Positions 1 through 31,439 of a DNA stretch of 34,891 nucleotides are shown here, piece after piece. The translations under genes and the position numbers were made by a program. How positions within the stretch are numbered: position 1 is the stretch's first letter; every line of letters starts with the position of its first letter. The notes under the pieces are model-generated. The model searched no databases. It saw only the letters and a program-made list of their open reading frames with translations, and had not been told where the DNA came from. The stretch comes from a bacterium BMS3Abin04 (GTDB taxonomy: Bacteria; Bacteroidota; Ignavibacteria; Ignavibacteriales; Melioribacteraceae): assembly GCA_002898175.1 (NCBI GenBank), contig BDSW01000047.1, positions 1 to 34,891 of the forward strand, in the 5' to 3' direction.

Positions 1-652
1 ACCGGTAAGAATATTTAAGATTTTTGTTTTTTAACTAATTTGCTAACTAGGTTGTAACCGAAATTCCCGATAGATTATCATTACACATTGAAGGATGACA
101 AATATGTGTTGATATTAAGACTTCATCCTTTAGTTTACCGGGTAAATAAAATTCGCCATAAGTCAAATTTCCGCTTTCTAAAGTTGAATCAATTACTACT
201 TGGTAGTTTTCGTTCTTTAAAGCCAGGAACTGATTTTGGGACATACAGAAACCCCAATTTTCTTTATAATAAGTTGTGCGGTAAGGAATCCAACTAGGGT
301 GATCAGGAAGTGTAAAGATATGTTGTTCTAATTCTACAAAAGTGATTTCTTTATCGATTGGAATACTATAATTAACTACATGCAGATTCGATTTCTTAAA
401 ATCTATAATTTTTTCACCGTTATTATTTAGAATATATGCATCATTTATATTCCATTCTTTTGGAACCGTCCAATCAAAAACTTTTGTACCTGTCGGAACC
501 TCCGTTATTTCAAGTGGAATTATCTCTTTAATAAAATTTAACGTCTGTCTTACACCGTTACCGGTTATGCTTCTACAGATAGGATAAAGCCTTTCAATAA
601 AATTGTACAATTTATTTTCATTACTTTCAATTCTTTCTTCGTTACTAATCAT
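1..652 (-). pseudogene. DUF4910/DUF2172 aminopeptidase-like protein, interrupted by two amber codons and cut by the window edge
   Basis: The N-terminal 201 residues match the M28-like DUF4910 (formerly DUF2172) family that is common in surface-polysaccharide clusters: RLYPICRSITGNG at 21-33 and STHICHPSMCNDNLSG at 181-196, whose His183, His186 and Asp192 are likely metal ligands. Family members are about 430 aa. Here TAG codons lie at 47-49 and 35-37 (codons 202 and 206), yet the same frame goes on past both with LKNKNLKYSYR, which is what I expect next in the family, with correct spacing. The stops sit where relatives I recall carry aromatic residues. I infer two point nonsense mutations. 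An alternative is a pair of compensating indels, because another frame (GYNLVSKLVKK) is open between the stops. TAG ends several intact genes here, so general TAG recoding is unlikely. The gene is last in the sugar cassette, 21 bp after the epimerase. Confidence 0.62.
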
Positions 653-673: not shown

Positions 674-1777
674 TTAGCTGCATTTTTTTGCAATATTGTA
701 GGAGCTTGGTAATATAGAGTTTACATATCCGTAGTTTATCCAGCTTAAGTTCTGGTTTAGTTTATGTTTTTCAATTAATTCTTTAAGTATGTTTAATCTT
801 ATATATTTCGTATTATAAATATTCTTAGTCTGAAACTGCATATGCTCAATGCCGATTTTCAATTCGTTTATAGTATCAATTAATCTAATTTGAGGCTTAT
901 GAAATGGAGCAAGTCTTTCGAATAAATCAAAATTTACTTTATATGATCTATTATCATTGGAAGCATTCGGGTTAATACTAATTTTACTATTTGGAATAAC
1001 TTGAGCAACTAACCCGGCTAAATCCTTTACCTTGTAATTTGAATCATTCGAACCAACATTTACCGCAAGAAAGTCTCCACCTAAGTTAGGAGTTCGTTTT
1101 ATTCCCCATTCTATCGCTCTTGCCATATCTTTTACATCAATAATCGGGCGCCATGGTTCACCGTTACTAAGAATCGTCATTTCATTATTTAAAACTGCTG
1201 ATGAAACAAAATCATTAAGTACTAAGTCCAAACGTAATCTGCAACTCCAACCGGCTGCTGTTGAAAAACGCAAAGCTGTAACCGTAAAATCCGGGTCGGC
1301 TAAACTTTCCAATTTTTGCTCAGATAAAACTTTTGATTTAGCATAAACGGAAAGCGGATTTAACTCATCGACTTCGGTTTTGGCATTTAGGGTTGCATTA
1401 CCATACATGCTGCAGCTGGAAGCAAAAACAAAGGATTTCACTTTAGCTTCTTTTGCCAACCGAGCTAATTTTACTGTTCCGTTATAATTTATGTCCATAG
1501 TACTATCTTGGAACTGATTACCCATCGGATCATTTGATATTGCTGCCAAGTGAATTATTGCATCTACATTTTTAAGGAAATTCAAACTTACATTTCTAAC
1601 ATCCCCATGATACTGATAATGCGGGAAATACTCTTCTGCACAAGCGCTTACCGATAAACAATCCTCAAAAAAGCCTATGTCCAACCCGATTAATACAGAA
1701 TCGGGTAAAACCTGTTTTATCCTTTTTACCACAACAGGTCCAATGTAACCCAAATTACCTGTAATTAAAATTTTCAT
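674..1777 (-). CDS. NAD-dependent nucleotide-sugar epimerase/dehydratase (extended SDR)
   Basis: A 367-aa extended short-chain dehydrogenase/reductase of the GalE-like NAD-epimerase family. The Rossmann glycine motif is GNLGYIG at 7-13, the active-site serine region is ASSCSMYG at 119-126, and the catalytic Tyr/Lys pair is YAKSK at 145-149. RFSTAAGWS and RLDLVLNDFV (about 170-192) are typical of the branch found next to C-methyltransferases. It should oxidise or epimerise an NDP-sugar in the cytoplasm; the substrate cannot be read from the sequence. About 50 C-terminal residues (NLSWINYGYV and onward) lie beyond the core fold. The ATG is preceded by AAGGA about ten bases upstream. A 198-bp gap with an inverted repeat separates it from the upstream methyltransferase, so it may have its own promoter or a structured leader. 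Confidence 0.9.
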   Translation of the reverse strand: MKILITGNLGYIGPVVVKRIKQVLPDSVLIGLDIGFFEDCLSVSACAEEYFPHYQYHGDVRNVSLNFLKNVDAIIHLAAISNDPMGNQFQDSTMDINYNGTVKLARLAKEAKVKSFVFASSCSMYGNATLNAKTEVDELNPLSVYAKSKVLSEQKLESLADPDFTVTALRFSTAAGWSCRLRLDLVLNDFVSSAVLNNEMTILSNGEPWRPIIDVKDMARAIEWGIKRTPNLGGDFLAVNVGSNDSNYKVKDLAGLVAQVIPNSKISINPNASNDNRSYKVNFDLFERLAPFHKPQIRLIDTINELKIGIEHMQFQTKNIYNTKYIRLNILKELIEKHKLNQNLSWINYGYVNSILPSSYNIAKKCS

Positions 1778-1975: not shown

Positions 1976-3202
1976 TTATATTATCTCGATTTTAGGAATA
2001 GGAATTATGAACTTTGCTCCCCATTTTCCGGTAAAACTTAATTGATTGATAATTTCATCTTTTAAGTTCCAAGGTAAAATAAATATATAATCAGGTTTTC
2101 TTTCTGCTATTTTTTCAGGAGAATAAATTGGGATGTGAGTACCGGGAAGAAATTTGCCCTGTTTATATGGATTTCGATCAACGGTAAATTCAAGAAAATC
2201 AGTACGAATACCGCAAAAATTTAATAGTGTATTTCCCTTACCAGGCGCACCATAACCGCATATTATTTTATTTTTTTCCTTAGCTTTAATAAAAAAATCT
2301 AAAATTTCACGTTTTAACGCAAAAATTTCTTCTTGAAAGTTTGTATAATATTCAACCTTTGAAATTCCCTCTACAATTTCATTATTTCTTAATCTATCAA
2401 CATTTTTTGAAATTAATTTTGTAGAATCCTCAATATGACAGCCGTAAATCCGGAGTGAACCACCGTGGGTTTTCAGTTCCTCAACATCGAAAATTTTTAA
2501 GCCGTGATATGAAAAGATTTTTTCAATTGTATAAAATGAGAAATAAGAAAAATGTTCATGGTAAATTGTATCAAATTGACGCTGTTTCACTAAATGCATC
2601 AAATGTGGAAATTCAAATGTAATTATTCCGTTAGGCGCCAATAGAGTTTTAACCCCTTTGATAAAATCATTCAAATCCGGTACTTGAGCCAACACGTTAT
2701 TTCCAATAATCAAATCGGCTTTTTCATTATTTTTAATAATCTCTTCGGCAAGTTTCTCACTAAAAAATTCAACCATCGTGTTTATATTTTTTTCCATTGC
2801 TACTTTTGCAACATTTGCAGCCGGTTCAATTCCCAAAACCGGTATTTTATTCTCAATAAAATTCTGAAGAAGATAACCGTCGTTACTTGCTATTTCAACC
2901 ACAAATGAATTCTGATTGATTTTAAATCTCTTAACCATATTTTCACTATATCTTTTAGCATGCTCTAACCAACTTTGCGAATAGGATGAAAAATAAGCGT
3001 ACTCTGTAAAAATTTCTTCGGGATCAACATATTCTTGAAGCTGGACCAAGAAGCAATTTTCACAGACATACAAATGCAAAGGATAGAACGGTTCCACCCG
3101 GTTCAGTTCATTTTCATTCAAATAACTTTCACATAAAGGAGACATTCCCAAATCAACAAAAGTCAGTTCCAAAACAGAACCGCAAAATCGACATTTATTC
3201 AT
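1976..3202 (-). CDS. Sugar C-methyltransferase, SAM-dependent (TylC3/TcaB9 type)
   Basis: A 408-aa three-part methyltransferase of the NDP-keto-deoxysugar C-methyltransferase family (zinc-binding N-domain, SAM domain, C-terminal Rossmann-like domain). The zinc ligands are C4, C7, C47 and C50. SAM motif I is [10 protein letters not shown] at 101-110. The catalytic stretch YHEH (214-217) is intact and Tyr68 in TEYAYFSS is kept. The C-terminal domain shows GYGAPGKGNTLLNF at 316-329 and RNPYKQGKFLPG at 343-354. Against the TcaB9 residues I recall (Tyr76, His181, Tyr222, Glu224, His225), with a constant offset of eight, only the His181 position differs (Gln173). It should transfer a methyl group to carbon of an NDP-keto sugar. 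It lies 28 bp downstream of its paralogue. The ATG start is preceded by GAGAG. Confidence 0.9.
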   Translation of the reverse strand: MNKCRFCGSVLELTFVDLGMSPLCESYLNENELNRVEPFYPLHLYVCENCFLVQLQEYVDPEEIFTEYAYFSSYSQSWLEHAKRYSENMVKRFKINQNSFVVEIASNDGYLLQNFIENKIPVLGIEPAANVAKVAMEKNINTMVEFFSEKLAEEIIKNNEKADLIIGNNVLAQVPDLNDFIKGVKTLLAPNGIITFEFPHLMHLVKQRQFDTIYHEHFSYFSFYTIEKIFSYHGLKIFDVEELKTHGGSLRIYGCHIEDSTKLISKNVDRLRNNEIVEGISKVEYYTNFQEEIFALKREILDFFIKAKEKNKIICGYGAPGKGNTLLNFCGIRTDFLEFTVDRNPYKQGKFLPGTHIPIYSPEKIAERKPDYIFILPWNLKDEIINQLSFTGKWGAKFIIPIPKIEII

Positions 3203-3230: not shown

Positions 3231-4457
3231 TTATACAATCTTTAATTCAGGAAGCGGGATAATAAATTTCCCGCCCTTTTTTCTATATTCAGCCTCTTGC
3301 CGAAGAATTTCATCTGCATAATTCCAAGCTAAGAGTAAAACATAATCGGGTATATTTTCTAAAAGTTTGCTTGGAGGAAATATCTTTAACAAATTCCCCG
3401 GTAAATAAAATCCTTGTTTAAAAGGATTCGAATCAACTGCATAATCAATCAGCTCTTTTCCAACTCCGACAAAGTTCAGCATTGTTGTAGCCATTCCCCC
3501 GGAAGCACCGTATACAACAACTCTTTTATTTTTAGATTTAATTTCTTCAAGTAAATTCAATAGTCTGTACTTAATTTCGTTTACATGTTGAGGAAAATTT
3601 TTATAATATTCTATCTTATTAATACTCTTTGAACACTCTGAATTTATAATTTTATCTGTCGATTCATCATGATTTTTTTCGTGCTCAATAAATAATCTTA
3701 ACGAACCGCCAAATGTAGGGATTTCTTCAATTTTATTAATATAAAGAGAATGTTTATTAAACAGGTTATTCAATGCAATAACTGAAAAGTAAGATAGATT
3801 CTGATGAAAAATCATATCAAATTCATTTCTCTCAATTAAATTTATTGAATATGGAACTTCGAAAATAACAACACCATTTGGTTTTAATAACTTTTTCAAA
3901 TTTCCGGCGAATTCGTTTAAGTCGGATATTAAGTTTAACACATTATTCCCTAAAATTACATCCGCCGATTTTCCTTGATCTAGCAAATCGTTTGTAACTT
4001 TTATATTAAAAAAATCACATAAAGTAGGAATTCCATTTCCAATAGCCACCTTAGCCGGACCTTTAGCCGGATCAATGCCCAATACTTGAATATTCTTTTC
4101 TGCAAAGTACTTAAGCATGTAACCGTCGTTGCTTGCAATCTCAATCACTAAACTATCTTGATTCAGATCTCTACTTTTAATTATTTGATTAGCGCTTTTT
4201 AAGAAATGATTAAGTAATGTTTTTGACACGGAAGAATAATAGGGATAATCATCCACATAAAGGATTTGCGGATCAACCTCATCTTTAAGCTGCAACAAAC
4301 TACAATTGTTACAAAAAATTAAATCCAGAGGATATTTTTTTTGAGGAATGTTAAGCTGCGATTCTTTCAGTAATACGTCCGCTAAAGGAATTTCACCGAA
4401 TGAGAAAATTTCTTCAAGATTATCACTTCCACACGAACGACAAAGTGAATGCCTCAC
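3231..4457 (-). CDS. C-methyltransferase paralogue with a degenerate catalytic site
   Basis: Also 408 aa and with the same three-part architecture as its downstream neighbour: zinc cysteines C6, C9, C49 and C52, SAM motif [10 protein letters not shown] at 104-113, and C-terminal [14 protein letters not shown] near 341-354. The catalytic stretch that reads YHEH in the neighbour is FHQN here (217-220), and the position matching TcaB9 His181 is Leu176; only the early tyrosine (Tyr71) survives. The C-terminal glycine loop reads [10 protein letters not shown] (316-325) and lacks the lysine found in the neighbour. The SAM fold looks kept while the C-methylation chemistry is probably lost or changed. 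It may act on another position of the sugar, catalyse another reaction, or serve as a partner subunit. The start is GTG with AAGG upstream, 17 bp after the deacetylase. Confidence 0.88.
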
Positions 4458-7698: not shown

Positions 7699-9429
7699 CT
7701 AAATTTTCTTTTCATATTCCGTATCATTCATTACTAAATATCTTTTAATTTTTTTTGTTGTAGTTTTTTCAAATTCATGCTCCCGAATATAAAAGCGCAT
7801 AATTCTTTTAAAAGAAGTTAGATTTTTATTTATTCTTTTAATTTCGTCCCCTATTATTTTATCAATAAGTTTATCATTAATTTGAACATTATTTTTTTGC
7901 GAATACAGAATAAATTCCTCCGAATCAACAACAATTTGCGCAGCAATTACTTCGCTTTGTTTATCATCTTTTTCGCCGTAAACAACAGACTCCAAAATGA
8001 ATGGACTTTTATTTAACATATCTTCTATTTCCTCAGGGAAAACATTTTTACCGTTTTTTGAAATTATTACATTTTTTTTCCTGCCGCTAACATGAAGAAA
8101 TCCATCGTTATCAATATAACCTAAATCGCCGGTCTTAAACCATCCGTCTTCAAACGCCTCTTCCGTTTTTTCTTTATTTTTATAGTATCCCAACATTACA
8201 TTATCTCCCTTTGCATATATTTCTCCTATACCGTTTTCATCCGGGTTAACAATTTTTAATTTTACTCCCGGCAACGGTAACCCGGCGGCATCATTCTTAA
8301 AATTATCTAATTGATTTAATGCTAAAATGGGTGAAGTTTCCGTCAATCCGTATCCTTGTAAAAACCCGAAACCAAATCCTTGCAATCCTTTAGCAACCTC
8401 CGGATCCGGTGGAGCGCCACCCACTATAAAAAGTCTTATAGCGCCACCAAATTTATCATGAATTTCTTTGAATATTTTTTTCTTGATATTTTTAATTTTT
8501 AATTTCTCCAAAGCATTCATTAAAGCAACTATTTTGGGAACAATTACTGCTTTTTTTGAATCGCTCTGAACAGCCTTTTGGATTTTTTTATACATCTTAT
8601 CAAATAATAACGGAACACCAAGAACAATGGTTGGTTTGACCTTTAACATATCATCCGCTATTGTTTTAAGCGAACGAGAATAATGTACCGAGGAACCGGC
8701 ATACAACGGACAAAGCATTCCGCAAGTACATTCATAAGTATGATGCATTGGAAGAACAGATAAAAATTTATCTTCCGGATACATCATTAACATACTTAAC
8801 ATATCTTGCAAATTTGCAGCTAGATTTTTTTGTGAAAGCATCACGCCTTTTGCTCTTCCCAAAGAACCCGAGGTAAATATAATTTCCGCCATATCATTTG
8901 AATTAATTTTAGGTAAAGTCGATTCACTAGCTTCTATTTCCCGGTCTATTAAATCTTTCATAAAAATAAAATCGTCTTTTTGTGATTCTTTATCCATATT
9001 AATGAAGACGGTTAAATTTTTTAGTGTATTTTTCTTTTCAATCAGTAGATTAGAAAAATTATCGGAAAAAATTATTGCTTCGGAATCGGATTCATAAAGA
9101 ATATTTAGTATTTCACTGAATGTGAGATTCTTATCGATAGGAACAACGACATAATTAAATGACATTAGCGTAAGATAACTTATAGCCCATTGAACCCTGT
9201 TATCACTTATTAAAGCTATATGGGTTCTTCCCGGAAGTCCAAGTTTTCTTAAAGCATTACCAAACCTTAATATGCTATTTTTGAGTTGTTGATAATTTAC
9301 TTTTGAAATCGGGTAGTTAATAAGATCTTCAAGAGCGAGTTTTTCGCTATATTTTTTACATGATTTAAAAATCATGTCTTGTATGTGTTCAATTTTAGGA
9401 GCGGTATAAAGTTTCAATTTTCTTTTCAT
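7699..9429 (-). CDS. AMP-forming long-chain fatty-acid-CoA ligase
   Basis: A 576-aa ANL-superfamily enzyme that activates a fatty acid with ATP to acyl-AMP and transfers it to CoA. Motifs in order are the P-loop-like FTSGSLGRAKG (185-195, a variant of TSGTTGxPKG), QGYGLTETSP (358-367), DGWFKTGDLGYI (428-439) and SGRKKNVIISKNGKNVFPEEIE (about 448-469); the C-terminal catalytic lysine is probably within KTTTKKIKRY (555-564). Residues 37-550 cover the large and small lobes. The protein is somewhat shorter than FadD-type ligases of about 600 aa. It follows pepD by 63 bp, with a strong hairpin between them and GGTGAG just before the ATG. The stop is TAG. A second, much larger acyl ligase lies at 26631-31439. 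Confidence 0.9.
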   Translation of the reverse strand: MKRKLKLYTAPKIEHIQDMIFKSCKKYSEKLALEDLINYPISKVNYQQLKNSILRFGNALRKLGLPGRTHIALISDNRVQWAISYLTLMSFNYVVVPIDKNLTFSEILNILYESDSEAIIFSDNFSNLLIEKKNTLKNLTVFINMDKESQKDDFIFMKDLIDREIEASESTLPKINSNDMAEIIFTSGSLGRAKGVMLSQKNLAANLQDMLSMLMMYPEDKFLSVLPMHHTYECTCGMLCPLYAGSSVHYSRSLKTIADDMLKVKPTIVLGVPLLFDKMYKKIQKAVQSDSKKAVIVPKIVALMNALEKLKIKNIKKKIFKEIHDKFGGAIRLFIVGGAPPDPEVAKGLQGFGFGFLQGYGLTETSPILALNQLDNFKNDAAGLPLPGVKLKIVNPDENGIGEIYAKGDNVMLGYYKNKEKTEEAFEDGWFKTGDLGYIDNDGFLHVSGRKKNVIISKNGKNVFPEEIEDMLNKSPFILESVVYGEKDDKQSEVIAAQIVVDSEEFILYSQKNNVQINDKLIDKIIGDEIKRINKNLTSFKRIMRFYIREHEFEKTTTKKIKRYLVMNDTEYEKKI

Positions 9430-26630: not shown

Positions 26631-29600
26631 TCAGCCTTCCAGCTTTTTAACTAACCCCGAATATTTCCTTTCAATTTTAAAACCGAATTTGTAAAAATAT
26701 TCCGGTCTAAAGAACCCGGTTGTTACAAATTTAATCTTTTCATCTCTTAACCTATTGAAAAACTCGTTCATCAATCCATCGCTTATTCCTTTTCTTCTAT
26801 AAGGATCTGCAACAACAATTTTTTCCATGTGAACGGTTTTTTTATCCGTTTGAATGTAAAACAAGCCTCCAATAATATATTCACGTTCAGAAAGTGCAAC
26901 AAGAAATTGATGTTCAGGTCTGAAATGAACCTGCAAATTAGCCGCTAAAAACAAATTATGCAGACGTGCAATTTCTTTAGGCGAAATGGGATTACGGAAA
27001 AGGAATATATTACCCTCATGGTCTTCAAATTGTACCGCGAGGTTTGCTGCATACGCACCTGCTCCCCTTATTTTAAGCAGTTCGGCAGAATCAGTTGGTT
27101 TTAAGTGGGGGTAACTTAATCTGGTCAGGAAATAACTTTCTTTTTTATTTAAACTAAATTCAGTCTGAATTTTTGAAATATAAGAGAGCAATTTTTCCTG
27201 TGAAATTTTTTCCGAGTGTTGTTTTTTAACTAAATCAAGCAATACTATCTTTAAGGATTCTACCGAATCAGCGAAACAAGTCTCTAAGAAAAATCTTGTG
27301 CGTGTTTCAGGATAATATTCATTTAAGTCACTTAAATTATAAGTATCATAAAGTTCGGAAAGCATTTCAGCTTGAGCTTCAATTGCTGCATTATCATTTA
27401 GTTTAAACCAACGATGAAATCTTTTAATAGCAAAATACAACTGCTTGGGAATGTACCCTTTTTCTTTAATAGTCAATAAAAATAAATCTAATTTTTCTTG
27501 CACGTTATCCATTTCTTCCGGTACGCCGACAGATTCTAATTCAAGCTTAAATTGTTTTAATATTATTAATCCGTTTTTTTGCCCTTGAGCATTGATAACA
27601 CCGGAAAACACATAATTCCATATTGAATCCCTATGTAAAAACGGGTATTCATTTTCTGTATTGTGAATAAATTTAACGTGAAAGTTTCTGAAAAATTCTT
27701 TAAAATCAGTAAAATCAGATTTCTCCGTTAATGAAACAATTCTATTTCCCGACTGATAATCATGAAATGGAATAATGAAATTATCAATAGTAGAATTTTC
27801 AAGCTGCAATTTGCTCTCGGTAAGTTTCCAAAAGTTTACATAAGCTGCGGCTGCATTCCAAACAAAATACGGCCATAAATGATATAGCTTTCGTTTATTT
27901 GTTTCATCTTCCCTTCTTAATTCACGTTTAATTAACTTAGCAACCGTATCTCCCGGTAAATATTTTTGAGTCCACAAATCATATTCCTGCCAATACCCTC
28001 CGAAATCTTCAACCAACTCATTTACATAAAATTTAGTACCTGCAATTATTAACCATTTAATTTCTTGCTTAATTTCACTTTTAGGTAATTTTTTATTTAA
28101 TGTTAAAAGCAATTCAAACGCACCGTGCAAACGAGTTTGAATAGTTACTTTGAATGCAGCTTTTGTCTTAGTATTGGAAACTTGGCTCACCCAAATTCCC
28201 GAAGGTAAAATACTATCTAAATGAATTAAAACGCCTTTTGTAAACAAGAATATAGTTTCTCTTAAAATTGCAGTTTCTGAAATACCTTTAATAATTCTAT
28301 CCTTTAAGATTTCGTCAACGCCTTCTTCAACAATAATTACATCTTTCCATTGATATTCTTCACCCGTTTCAACATCTACGGCAACCGATTCATTTTTACC
28401 AAGCCAAGTTCTAAAACCTTTTCTTAATTTTTTTCTTGCTGTCTCGGCTAAGACCGCTAATTCATAATTCTCTTTCCAAACTTGTAGGCGAGCCAGCATT
28501 TGCCTTACTTCACTGTATCTTGTAGGATGACGTATACCATACTTAGCTAACAAGTTTAACATCACCGGTATTGAAGTTTTCTTGATATCTTCTTCTTTAT
28601 GAGATTTAATTTCACTCATTAAAATATCTTCAATCTCATGTAATTCTTCTTTCCCGGAGCTTCCTTCAATTATATAGTAACTCAAATCTTCGTTTAAAAA
28701 ATCAGGATTACTATTAAGGTATGTTCTAAATAAACCGTAAAAAGCATTTAATGTTATTCTTGGTATTGCAGCTCTAAATAATTTTCGTCTTATATTCAAT
28801 GATTTTGTTAGAGATAAAAACGAGATGAAGTGTAATGCGGTTTTATAAATAGGAATTGTTTTATCGGATAATAAAAATCTAATATAATTCACTGCTTCTG
28901 AAGCCAGACCTTCATCATCTGATCTTAACAGCAAAAGTGCATAGTGTAATCCAATTAACGATGTTTCCTTACCGATTTCAATTTTTTGAAAGTGTTCCAA
29001 GATTTGGTTTGATATTGTTTCTTGGGATATAACATTTACAATTTCAATGTCCTTTTCAACACGACTCTGCCTGTGCCATTGAACAATTGTTTCGCCGGTA
29101 AACTCAAATAAGTTTTGATTTCCGCACCAATAAAGCGGGTTTGTAAGGAAGTCTTGTAAATCAATATGTTTATTATTGATTTTATATTCATAGTCACCGA
29201 TTCTATAAATATTTTCTTTCGGGTCAATTCTTTTAATAACTAATGAGCTATTGAGCTTAGGAATCTCTAACTTACCATTTACGGTATAAATATCACCGCT
29301 TAAACATCCTTTTTCCCGGAGGAACCAATTAGGTATCTTAATCTCTACGTTATCAATATAAACGGATGTATGATCTTTGATATACATTTCTTCCAACTGT
29401 TCGTGGAAGTTTTTTTCTATTACTCGGCGTTTATATGTCCCTTTGGGAGTCAATTCTCCTTTTTCTACCGAAAACGGTCTATTGATTATCCTGAAATTAA
29501 CTATCCTCTCAAAAGGAGCTAAAAATTTATTAACCGAAACAATTACCGAAGCAAAATAATCTTTAATTTCTTGATTGGACATGTTTTCTAGGATAGAGTT

Positions 29601-31439
29601 TTCCACTTCAAAGTTTGGGAAAATTAGAACAGTGTTAAACGGTCTATGATCTCCGGCTAGAAAGACTTGCTTCACATTCTCAAAATCCCGGAAGTAATTT
29701 TCTATTTTCTGCGGTGCAATAGTTTCTCCTTTTACGTTTTTATAAATTTCCTTTTTCCTGTCAATAATCTCAATAAAACCATTTTCATCCATTTTCATTA
29801 TGTCGCCGGTGGGTAACCATTCCCCATTAAGAAAAATATTATCTTTTCCGTAATAACCAATCATAACATAGTGCCCTTTAATGAGCAGTTCGCCGTCATC
29901 AGCTATTTTAATTTCCATTCCCGGAAGCGGTTTCCCAAGAGAATTAGGAATATACTTTCCCGGCGGCGTCATAGTTATTCCACCGGTAGCTTCGGTCATT
30001 CCGAAACCGCTCATTAATTCAATATTGTTTTTCTGAAAGAAAGCAAATACTTCAGCCGGAAGATACCCGGCAGCCGAAAGCCCCCATTTTAAATTTCCGC
30101 CGGTATTATTTTTAACGGTTTTTTTTATTAAATCTACATCATCCAATTCAAGGCTTACATGAGCGCCGATAAAATCATATAATTGTATCCACTTTTTAGG
30201 AATACTTATAAAAATTGTTGGTTTCACCAATTGCATATCAGCTATCATGGTTTCCAGCGCCGGGTTTTCCATAAAAGAATAACTCGCGCCCCAAAATACG
30301 CTGCCGGTCATTTCGAACCAGCGGCCAAAAGTATGGTACAATGGTAAGTATGCTAAAAAGCCATCATTGTCCCCGATCTTTGGAAGAGCCATAGCTCTAC
30401 AAAATCTTTTGTAAACTATATTCATGTTGGAAAACATTATACCTTTCGGTTCGCCTGTTGTACCGGAAGTATACATAACCGATGCTAATGAGTTTATGTC
30501 AATATCTCTATTTATTTTGTCAGTATTCAATTTTTGCTTGCTTAAAAATTCATCGAATGTTATCACCCACTCTTCGGCGCTGGAACCTTCCAGCAATATA
30601 ACTTGCTTAAGATGAATCAATTCTTGTTTAATAGATTTTATTTTTGACAACTGCTTCTCGTTAGAAACAAAAAGAAAAGGAGCTTCCGTTTGGTTTAGTA
30701 TAAAAGTAACGTGCTGAGAAACAGAGTTAGCGGGAATCATAATATTTACGATTCCGGAAGTTAAACAAGATAAATCAAGCATTGCCATATTAATACTATT
30801 TTCCATAAGGAAAGCTACTTTGAAATCCGCAATATTAAACTCCGACGCTAAACCGAACATGGATTGACTATATACATCAATTGTCTCATCTACTTCTTGC
30901 CAGCTATAACCTGAAACAGTTTTACCGGTTATTACATTAAAGAGTGTTTTGTTTCCATAAATTTTAACTCTTTGCTTAAATAGTTCTCTAAAGTTAAAGT
31001 TACTTCCATTTATCAAATTATAAATTAAGTCTTCCCATCTATTATCATCATAAATCTTTTTAAGGAATTGAGATAATCTGAACAAATTAAGATATTGATG
31101 AATAACTTTAGTGATGATATTCTTATTAATAACATCACTCCCCTTTAGCAGATTATAAAGAAAGTTACCTAAGTTAAAATATATGTCTGGATTTATTTTC
31201 TCCATCATACCGTAAGCAAGCTGTGCCGGGATTGATGAAGCAAGAATTTCTTTAAATTCAGTTAACGCTTCGTCTTTTTTAAGCATATCAATTTCCACTG
31301 CCTCTTTAACAAAAGACTCAAACATCTCATTAACAACTTGGAGCTGTTTTCCATCCAGCGCAGATTTTCCTGAAAGGATTGTATTCTTCAAAGTACTTAA
31401 TTTGGTCTTTAACTCCGCTGCATTCTGGTTTACCGACAT
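26631..31439 (-). CDS. Giant fusion: AMP-forming acyl ligase + large unassigned region + C-terminal GNAT acyltransferase
   Basis: A 1602-aa multidomain protein. Residues 1-150 are helical and unassigned. Residues 150-680 form an ANL-superfamily acyl-activating domain like long-chain acyl-CoA synthetases: YTSGTTGEPKG (323-333), YLPLYHTFGR (364-373), GFGMTEAT (478-485), WLPTGDI (541-547), DRKKEIYKNVKGETIAP (560-576) and probable catalytic lysine K666 in LTPKGTYKRR. Residues about 820-1000 look like alpha-helical repeats. Residues about 1010-1300 mix strands and helices, with EYDLWTQKYLPGDTV (1152-1166) and IIPFHDYQSGNRIVSL (1222-1237); they faintly suggest a kinase-like fold, but I cannot assign them. 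Residues 1460-1602 are a GNAT acetyltransferase domain with the acyl-CoA loop VVADPYRRKGISDGL (542-556 plus 1000). It stands alone, 131 bp from citrate synthase. A role in activating an acyl group and transferring it to an amine is inference. Confidence 0.88.
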   Translation of the reverse strand: MSVNQNAAELKTKLSTLKNTILSGKSALDGKQLQVVNEMFESFVKEAVEIDMLKKDEALTEFKEILASSIPAQLAYGMMEKINPDIYFNLGNFLYNLLKGSDVINKNIITKVIHQYLNLFRLSQFLKKIYDDNRWEDLIYNLINGSNFNFRELFKQRVKIYGNKTLFNVITGKTVSGYSWQEVDETIDVYSQSMFGLASEFNIADFKVAFLMENSINMAMLDLSCLTSGIVNIMIPANSVSQHVTFILNQTEAPFLFVSNEKQLSKIKSIKQELIHLKQVILLEGSSAEEWVITFDEFLSKQKLNTDKINRDIDINSLASVMYTSGTTGEPKGIMFSNMNIVYKRFCRAMALPKIGDNDGFLAYLPLYHTFGRWFEMTGSVFWGASYSFMENPALETMIADMQLVKPTIFISIPKKWIQLYDFIGAHVSLELDDVDLIKKTVKNNTGGNLKWGLSAAGYLPAEVFAFFQKNNIELMSGFGMTEATGGITMTPPGKYIPNSLGKPLPGMEIKIADDGELLIKGHYVMIGYYGKDNIFLNGEWLPTGDIMKMDENGFIEIIDRKKEIYKNVKGETIAPQKIENYFRDFENVKQVFLAGDHRPFNTVLIFPNFEVENSILENMSNQEIKDYFASVIVSVNKFLAPFERIVNFRIINRPFSVEKGELTPKGTYKRRVIEKNFHEQLEEMYIKDHTSVYIDNVEIKIPNWFLREKGCLSGDIYTVNGKLEIPKLNSSLVIKRIDPKENIYRIGDYEYKINNKHIDLQDFLTNPLYWCGNQNLFEFTGETIVQWHRQSRVEKDIEIVNVISQETISNQILEHFQKIEIGKETSLIGLHYALLLLRSDDEGLASEAVNYIRFLLSDKTIPIYKTALHFISFLSLTKSLNIRRKLFRAAIPRITLNAFYGLFRTYLNSNPDFLNEDLSYYIIEGSSGKEELHEIEDILMSEIKSHKEEDIKKTSIPVMLNLLAKYGIRHPTRYSEVRQMLARLQVWKENYELAVLAETARKKLRKGFRTWLGKNESVAVDVETGEEYQWKDVIIVEEGVDEILKDRIIKGISETAILRETIFLFTKGVLIHLDSILPSGIWVSQVSNTKTKAAFKVTIQTRLHGAFELLLTLNKKLPKSEIKQEIKWLIIAGTKFYVNELVEDFGGYWQEYDLWTQKYLPGDTVAKLIKRELRREDETNKRKLYHLWPYFVWNAAAAYVNFWKLTESKLQLENSTIDNFIIPFHDYQSGNRIVSLTEKSDFTDFKEFFRNFHVKFIHNTENEYPFLHRDSIWNYVFSGVINAQGQKNGLIILKQFKLELESVGVPEEMDNVQEKLDLFLLTIKEKGYIPKQLYFAIKRFHRWFKLNDNAAIEAQAEMLSELYDTYNLSDLNEYYPETRTRFFLETCFADSVESLKIVLLDLVKKQHSEKISQEKLLSYISKIQTEFSLNKKESYFLTRLSYPHLKPTDSAELLKIRGAGAYAANLAVQFEDHEGNIFLFRNPISPKEIARLHNLFLAANLQVHFRPEHQFLVALSEREYIIGGLFYIQTDKKTVHMEKIVVADPYRRKGISDGLMNEFFNRLRDEKIKFVTTGFFRPEYFYKFGFKIERKYSGLVKKLEG

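Follow-up and report, generated by a model that had tools for sequence, protein, structure and literature searches.

Results

The window, a 34,891-nt stretch of DNA, corresponds to contig C47 in the draft genome of an uncultured bacterium (3.66 Mb, 391 contigs, 91.8% complete), and both start at the same base. At this end lies the 5' half of a gene of the DUF4910/DUF2172 type, directly downstream of an NAD-dependent epimerase gene (Table 1). The original prediction had placed two TAG codons in one frame of this gene, and both are present in the sequence. From the ATG, 201 open codons are followed by TAG, Leu-Ala-Asn, a second TAG and then LKNKNLKYSYR up to the contig end (...HPSMCNDNLSGISVTT*LAN*LKNKNLKYSYR), and both stops have the same context, TAG-TTA. 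That position 1, where the earlier reader's stretch ended, is a physical contig end and not an arbitrary cut was invisible to that reader, and it tilts the balance among the explanations weighed below.

The ORF before the first stop matches DUF4910 (PF16254; 153.9 bits, cut-off 26.6) and DUF2172 (PF09940; 134.6 bits, cut-off 27) in Pfam searches, the DUF2172 insert being present as a whole. Over 193 aa it shares 72% identity with the intact gene of genome G002, a same-genus member of the Melioribacteraceae. The metal-ligand His and Asp are present in the motif HPSMCND, and the position of the third ligand falls past the contig end. What would be a full-length DUF4910 frame with a C-terminal winged helix is interrupted by two TAGs and then by the end of the contig, and the remainder is in no readable contig.

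Table 1. Features at the DUF4910 end of the window (window coordinates)
Feature	Position	Strand	Remarks
Physical end of contig C47	1..1	.	Contig coordinates
DUF4910/DUF2172 gene, 5' half, M28-like metallopeptidase fold	1..652	-	ATG 650-652; cut at position 1
Family sequence beyond both stops, LKNKNLKYSYR	2..34	-	Keeps the register of the homologues' ..YSYR motif
Second in-frame TAG	35..37	-	Homologues H/Y; G002 and G003 TAC (Tyr)
First in-frame TAG	47..49	-	Homologues F/Y/H; G002 CAC (His)
NAD-dependent epimerase, directly upstream of DUF4910	674..1777	-	Order common to G001-G003

Further into the window are two tandem minus-strand genes of the same build (1976-3202 and 3231-4457), each with a zinc-binding Methyltransf_13 domain, a methyltransferase domain and Methyltransf_14. 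They adjoin genes for a PIG-L deacetylase, a nucleotidyltransferase and an epimerase, an arrangement that amounts to a sugar C-methyltransferase cassette in which the C-methyltransferase is duplicated. A 1602-aa protein (26631-31439, minus strand) carries an AMP-binding (acyl-CoA/acyl-adenylate ligase) domain near its N-terminus and a C-terminal GNAT acetyltransferase domain, and the roughly 800 residues between the two have no Pfam match at E 1e-5. At its opposite end the contig likewise truncates a gene, for a squalene/phytoene synthase (PF00494; 34425-34889, minus strand), which has no stop anomaly.

We examined the reading frame past the stops at both the DNA and the protein level. In a DNA-level search of the whole genome with DUF4910, the best match ran from 607 down to 2, straight through the two TAGs, and scored 172.2 bits, compared with 153.9 bits for the portion up to the first stop. 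When a profile built from 79 homologues was applied, the read-through frame (X at the stops) reached 227.4 bits and the truncated ORF 206.8 bits; every +1 or +2 switch close to the stops was scored as well, and the best reached 210.1 bits, leaving all of them 17 bits or more short of read-through. The spacing from HPS..ND to YSYR is the same in most homologues, and the terminal codons are family-like except for the two stops. The DNA aligns without gaps to that of G002 (ACC CAC TTG GCA AAT TAC TTA AAA in G002 and ACC TAG TTA GCA AAT TAG TTA AAA here), and the difference therefore consists of substitutions, not indels. Because the 201 codons match Pfam and the DNA-level match runs through both stops, the observation is real and the frame is right. 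The alignment to DUF4910 proteins that had been proposed as a check, made here with the profile and the homologues, agrees with the original prediction that LKNKNLKYSYR resumes in the family frame.

Homologues containing the motif numbered 81, three from same-genus genomes and the rest from a scan of genome contigs (the G002 record is in both sets), and none of the 81 has a stop at either site. Nor does any other DUF4910 match in 294 genomes of the class contain a stop. At the first site F occurs in 48 of the homologues, Y in 8 and H in 6, and at the second site H occurs in 24 and Y in 20; at both sites Y is the common residue one base from TAG. The statement in the original prediction that family members carry aromatic residues at the two positions is accordingly partly right.

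The DUF4910 genes of the three same-genus genomes (G001-G003) are intact. Over the 201 codons upstream of the stops, comparison with G002 gave a dN of 0.20 and a dS of 1.82, and this part of the gene is thus under strong purifying constraint. Most genomes of the family and class lack DUF4910, so that at that level the gene is dispensable. In one other genome of the class the DUF4910 match falls into two overlapping pieces in different frames (G233:C107:7669-8172 and 8159-8623), which suggests that this copy is frameshifted.

In G002 the intact gene is followed by a glycosyltransferase gene, tRNA-Cys, tRNA-Gly, pcm and miaA (glycosyltransferase, pcm and miaA being named from sequence). In the genome studied here, the C-terminal half of DUF4910 is absent from all readable contigs; those shorter than 3 kb are masked with N, so that the missing piece could sit among them. 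The next piece syntenic with G002 starts inside miaA, of which only the last third is present, at the very end of contig C354. Judged by the spacing in G002, about 3.5 kb is unrecovered between the ends of C47 and C354, and since the continuation is intact in G002 and the next piece is the miaA end of C354, this segment failed to assemble or to bin. Neither tRNA-Cys nor tRNA-Gly(gcc) is among the 29 tRNAs found in the genome. A 30-base, 90% match between the end of C47 and contig C27 lies inside what appears to be an ABC-transporter gene and is a chance AT-rich resemblance, not an overlap. Shared k-mers at contig ends, examined for hints of the assembler, came only from the N-masked contigs under 3 kb.

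The roughly 140 readable contig ends of the assembly show no general excess of stops: three outgoing coding frames stop within 50 bases of the end and three within 50-100 bases, and bins further inward are similar. About 10% of single substitutions in the terminal stretch of C47 create a stop, which puts the chance that two random errors would both do so at about 1%.

The genome shows no signs of recoding. RF1 (prfA) is intact (527.9 bits, curated cut-off 423.25), and a 0.77-Mb sample holds 299 long ORFs, of which 211 end in TAA, 45 in TAG and 43 in TGA. TAG also ends the four intact window genes that the original prediction had named (mrdA, the acyl ligase, DUF2851 and the 80-aa protein; 7080, 7699, 13192 and 16864), and its judgement that whole-genome recoding is not supported stands.

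The search for a suppressor tRNA that had been called for returned none: a CUA anticodon occurs in none of the 29 tRNAs identified with Rfam and ARAGORN, a set that lacks about a quarter of the isoacceptors (Ala, Ile, Phe, Asn and Cys among the missing kinds, contigs under 3 kb being masked) and whose incompleteness keeps this absence from being proof. Across four genomes of the genus, a CUA-tRNA pattern matched only normal tRNAs or stretches that are not called as tRNA, ARAGORN having been run on 30 of the 45 matches; the normal tRNAs were Arg-TCT, Leu-TAG, Leu-CAG and Cys-GCA. A weak tRNA match at C192:2364-2426 has, by eye, a CAT anticodon and not CUA. We also applied a composition test to 0.77 Mb, recording in-frame stops that have coding-like flanks and no early start codon after them, and it detected no other coding stretch interrupted by TAG. 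The single case that it returned is a TGA (locus L156 in G000:C37, minus strand, frame 1, codon 2694), possibly in a broken gene or a non-coding frame. No Rfam family matched in the window.

Discussion

With both stops in the final 49 bases of the contig and TAG a normal stop elsewhere, they most likely stem either from a flaw in sequencing or assembly or from a gene broken in the ordinary way. Of these we favour the former, at a probability of about 0.6: two bases miscalled at a contig end with poor support, each change turning TAY into TAG. (This figure and the weights that we give below in words to real nonsense and to suppression reflect judgement and were not computed as posteriors.) An ordinary DUF4910 gene, the last of a surface-sugar cassette, would be cut by the contig end; its terminal 49 bases would carry two wrong calls, each converting a probable Tyr codon into TAG; and the contig would have stopped there where read support was too low or conflicting. 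The two bases would then be read or consensus errors and not part of the organism's DNA. In favour of such errors, both stops are confined to the terminal stretch, and the 201 codons preceding it are open and constrained. Moreover, each site is most simply explained by a T or C replaced by G on the strand from which reads would extend outward past the contig end. In Illumina data, substitution errors become more frequent near the ends of reads and favour G (PMC4787001), a bias that changes to G at a contig end would match if, as we assume, the assembly is of Illumina origin. Against wrong base calls stand the absence of a general stop excess at the other contig ends and the small chance that two random errors would both make stops.

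Next in order are real nonsense mutations, possible but in our view somewhat doubtful, which would make the gene a recent pseudogene or a broken allele in part of the population, the strain difference itself having halted the assembly. The stops do stand in the consensus, strain polymorphism would by itself end a contig at such a spot, and the gene, which most family and class members lack, is dispensable at that level; sugar-cassette genes also differ between strains. Yet 217 codons whose only stops or frameshifts are two nonsense codons four codons apart would be an unusual form of decay, and both the strong constraint on the coding part and the three intact same-genus genes speak against it. 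If the first TAG does end translation, the product would be a 201-aa protein that keeps the His and Asp of HPSMCND and lacks the third ligand, more than half of the fold and the HTH domain, in which case it should be inactive. A paired insertion and deletion, with GYNLVSKLVKK as the true frame between the sites, has become exceedingly improbable; the alternative frame offers a superficially similar L..KL pattern, but it meets a stop of its own, every frame switch scores below read-through and the alignment with G002 is gap-free across both sites.

The remaining explanations have the TAGs read as sense. Local amber suppression or programmed read-through, in which a suppressor tRNA or the sequence context puts an aromatic residue at both TAGs and function is kept, would account for the good family sequence that continues in frame beyond both stops and for the fact that both are TAG in a shared context. 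We nevertheless hold it very unlikely, given an intact RF1, the ordinary use of TAG both in the genome sample and in the window, the lack of a CUA tRNA among the 29 called here or among the pattern matches in the genus, the lack of a stop in any homologue or other class genome with a DUF4910 match, and a TGA as the only flanked stop in the composition test. The specific form in which two TAGs are read as aromatic in one sugar-cassette gene against standard stop usage elsewhere, by a suppressor tRNA in the missing part of the genome or through context, is highly improbable. The chance of genome-wide reassignment of TAG is practically negligible, with RF1 above its curated cut-off and TAG an ordinary terminator of long ORFs. 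There is, in short, no positive evidence of unusual decoding, and the two TAGs most likely have an ordinary origin and do not represent a new way to read the code. The interpretation in the original prediction is partly supported: among the explanations that it listed, sequencing artefact (in the form of substitutions) and decay survive, whereas the paired indel falls and local suppression is left without support.

Wrong calls at the contig end thus remain our preferred explanation, followed by an ordinary double nonsense mutation. The case is a caution that stops lying within one read length of the end of a metagenomic contig need a check of the reads before either decay or recoding is called. 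Should the TAGs be real and read through, they would be a rare instance in which a free-living bacterium decodes amber codons in a gene-specific way.

The closest known relative of the gene is CA_C2195 of Clostridium acetobutylicum (PDB 3k9t), which comprises DUF4910, DUF2172 and HTH_47 (PMC4000134). Proteins of this family combine an M28-like metallopeptidase fold, which binds one zinc, with a DUF2172 insert and a winged helix, and a role in the synthesis of modified surface polysaccharides has been proposed for them; the metal ligands of CA_C2195 are His189, Asp195 and His324 (PMC4000134). The intact G002 protein matches 3k9t over its length (E 1.1e-158). The window ORF resembles CA_C2195 in the start of DUF4910, the whole DUF2172 insert and the His...Asp metal motif, and like other members of the family (PMC4000134) it stands beside sugar-modifying genes. 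It differs in the two TAGs and in being cut by the contig end, so that it shows neither the equivalent of His324 nor the remainder of the fold nor the HTH domain.

With lineages in which TAG is reassigned or suppressed, the locus shares an in-frame TAG and homologous sequence past it, but here RF1 is present, TAG is a normal stop, no CUA tRNA was found in the readable genome and no other gene was seen to be affected. Contig-end errors in metagenomic assemblies are another parallel: although such stops are no general feature of the contig ends of this assembly and both changes happen to make stops, the locus shares with such errors its place in the last 49 bases, a missing continuation and a change toward G on the outgoing strand.
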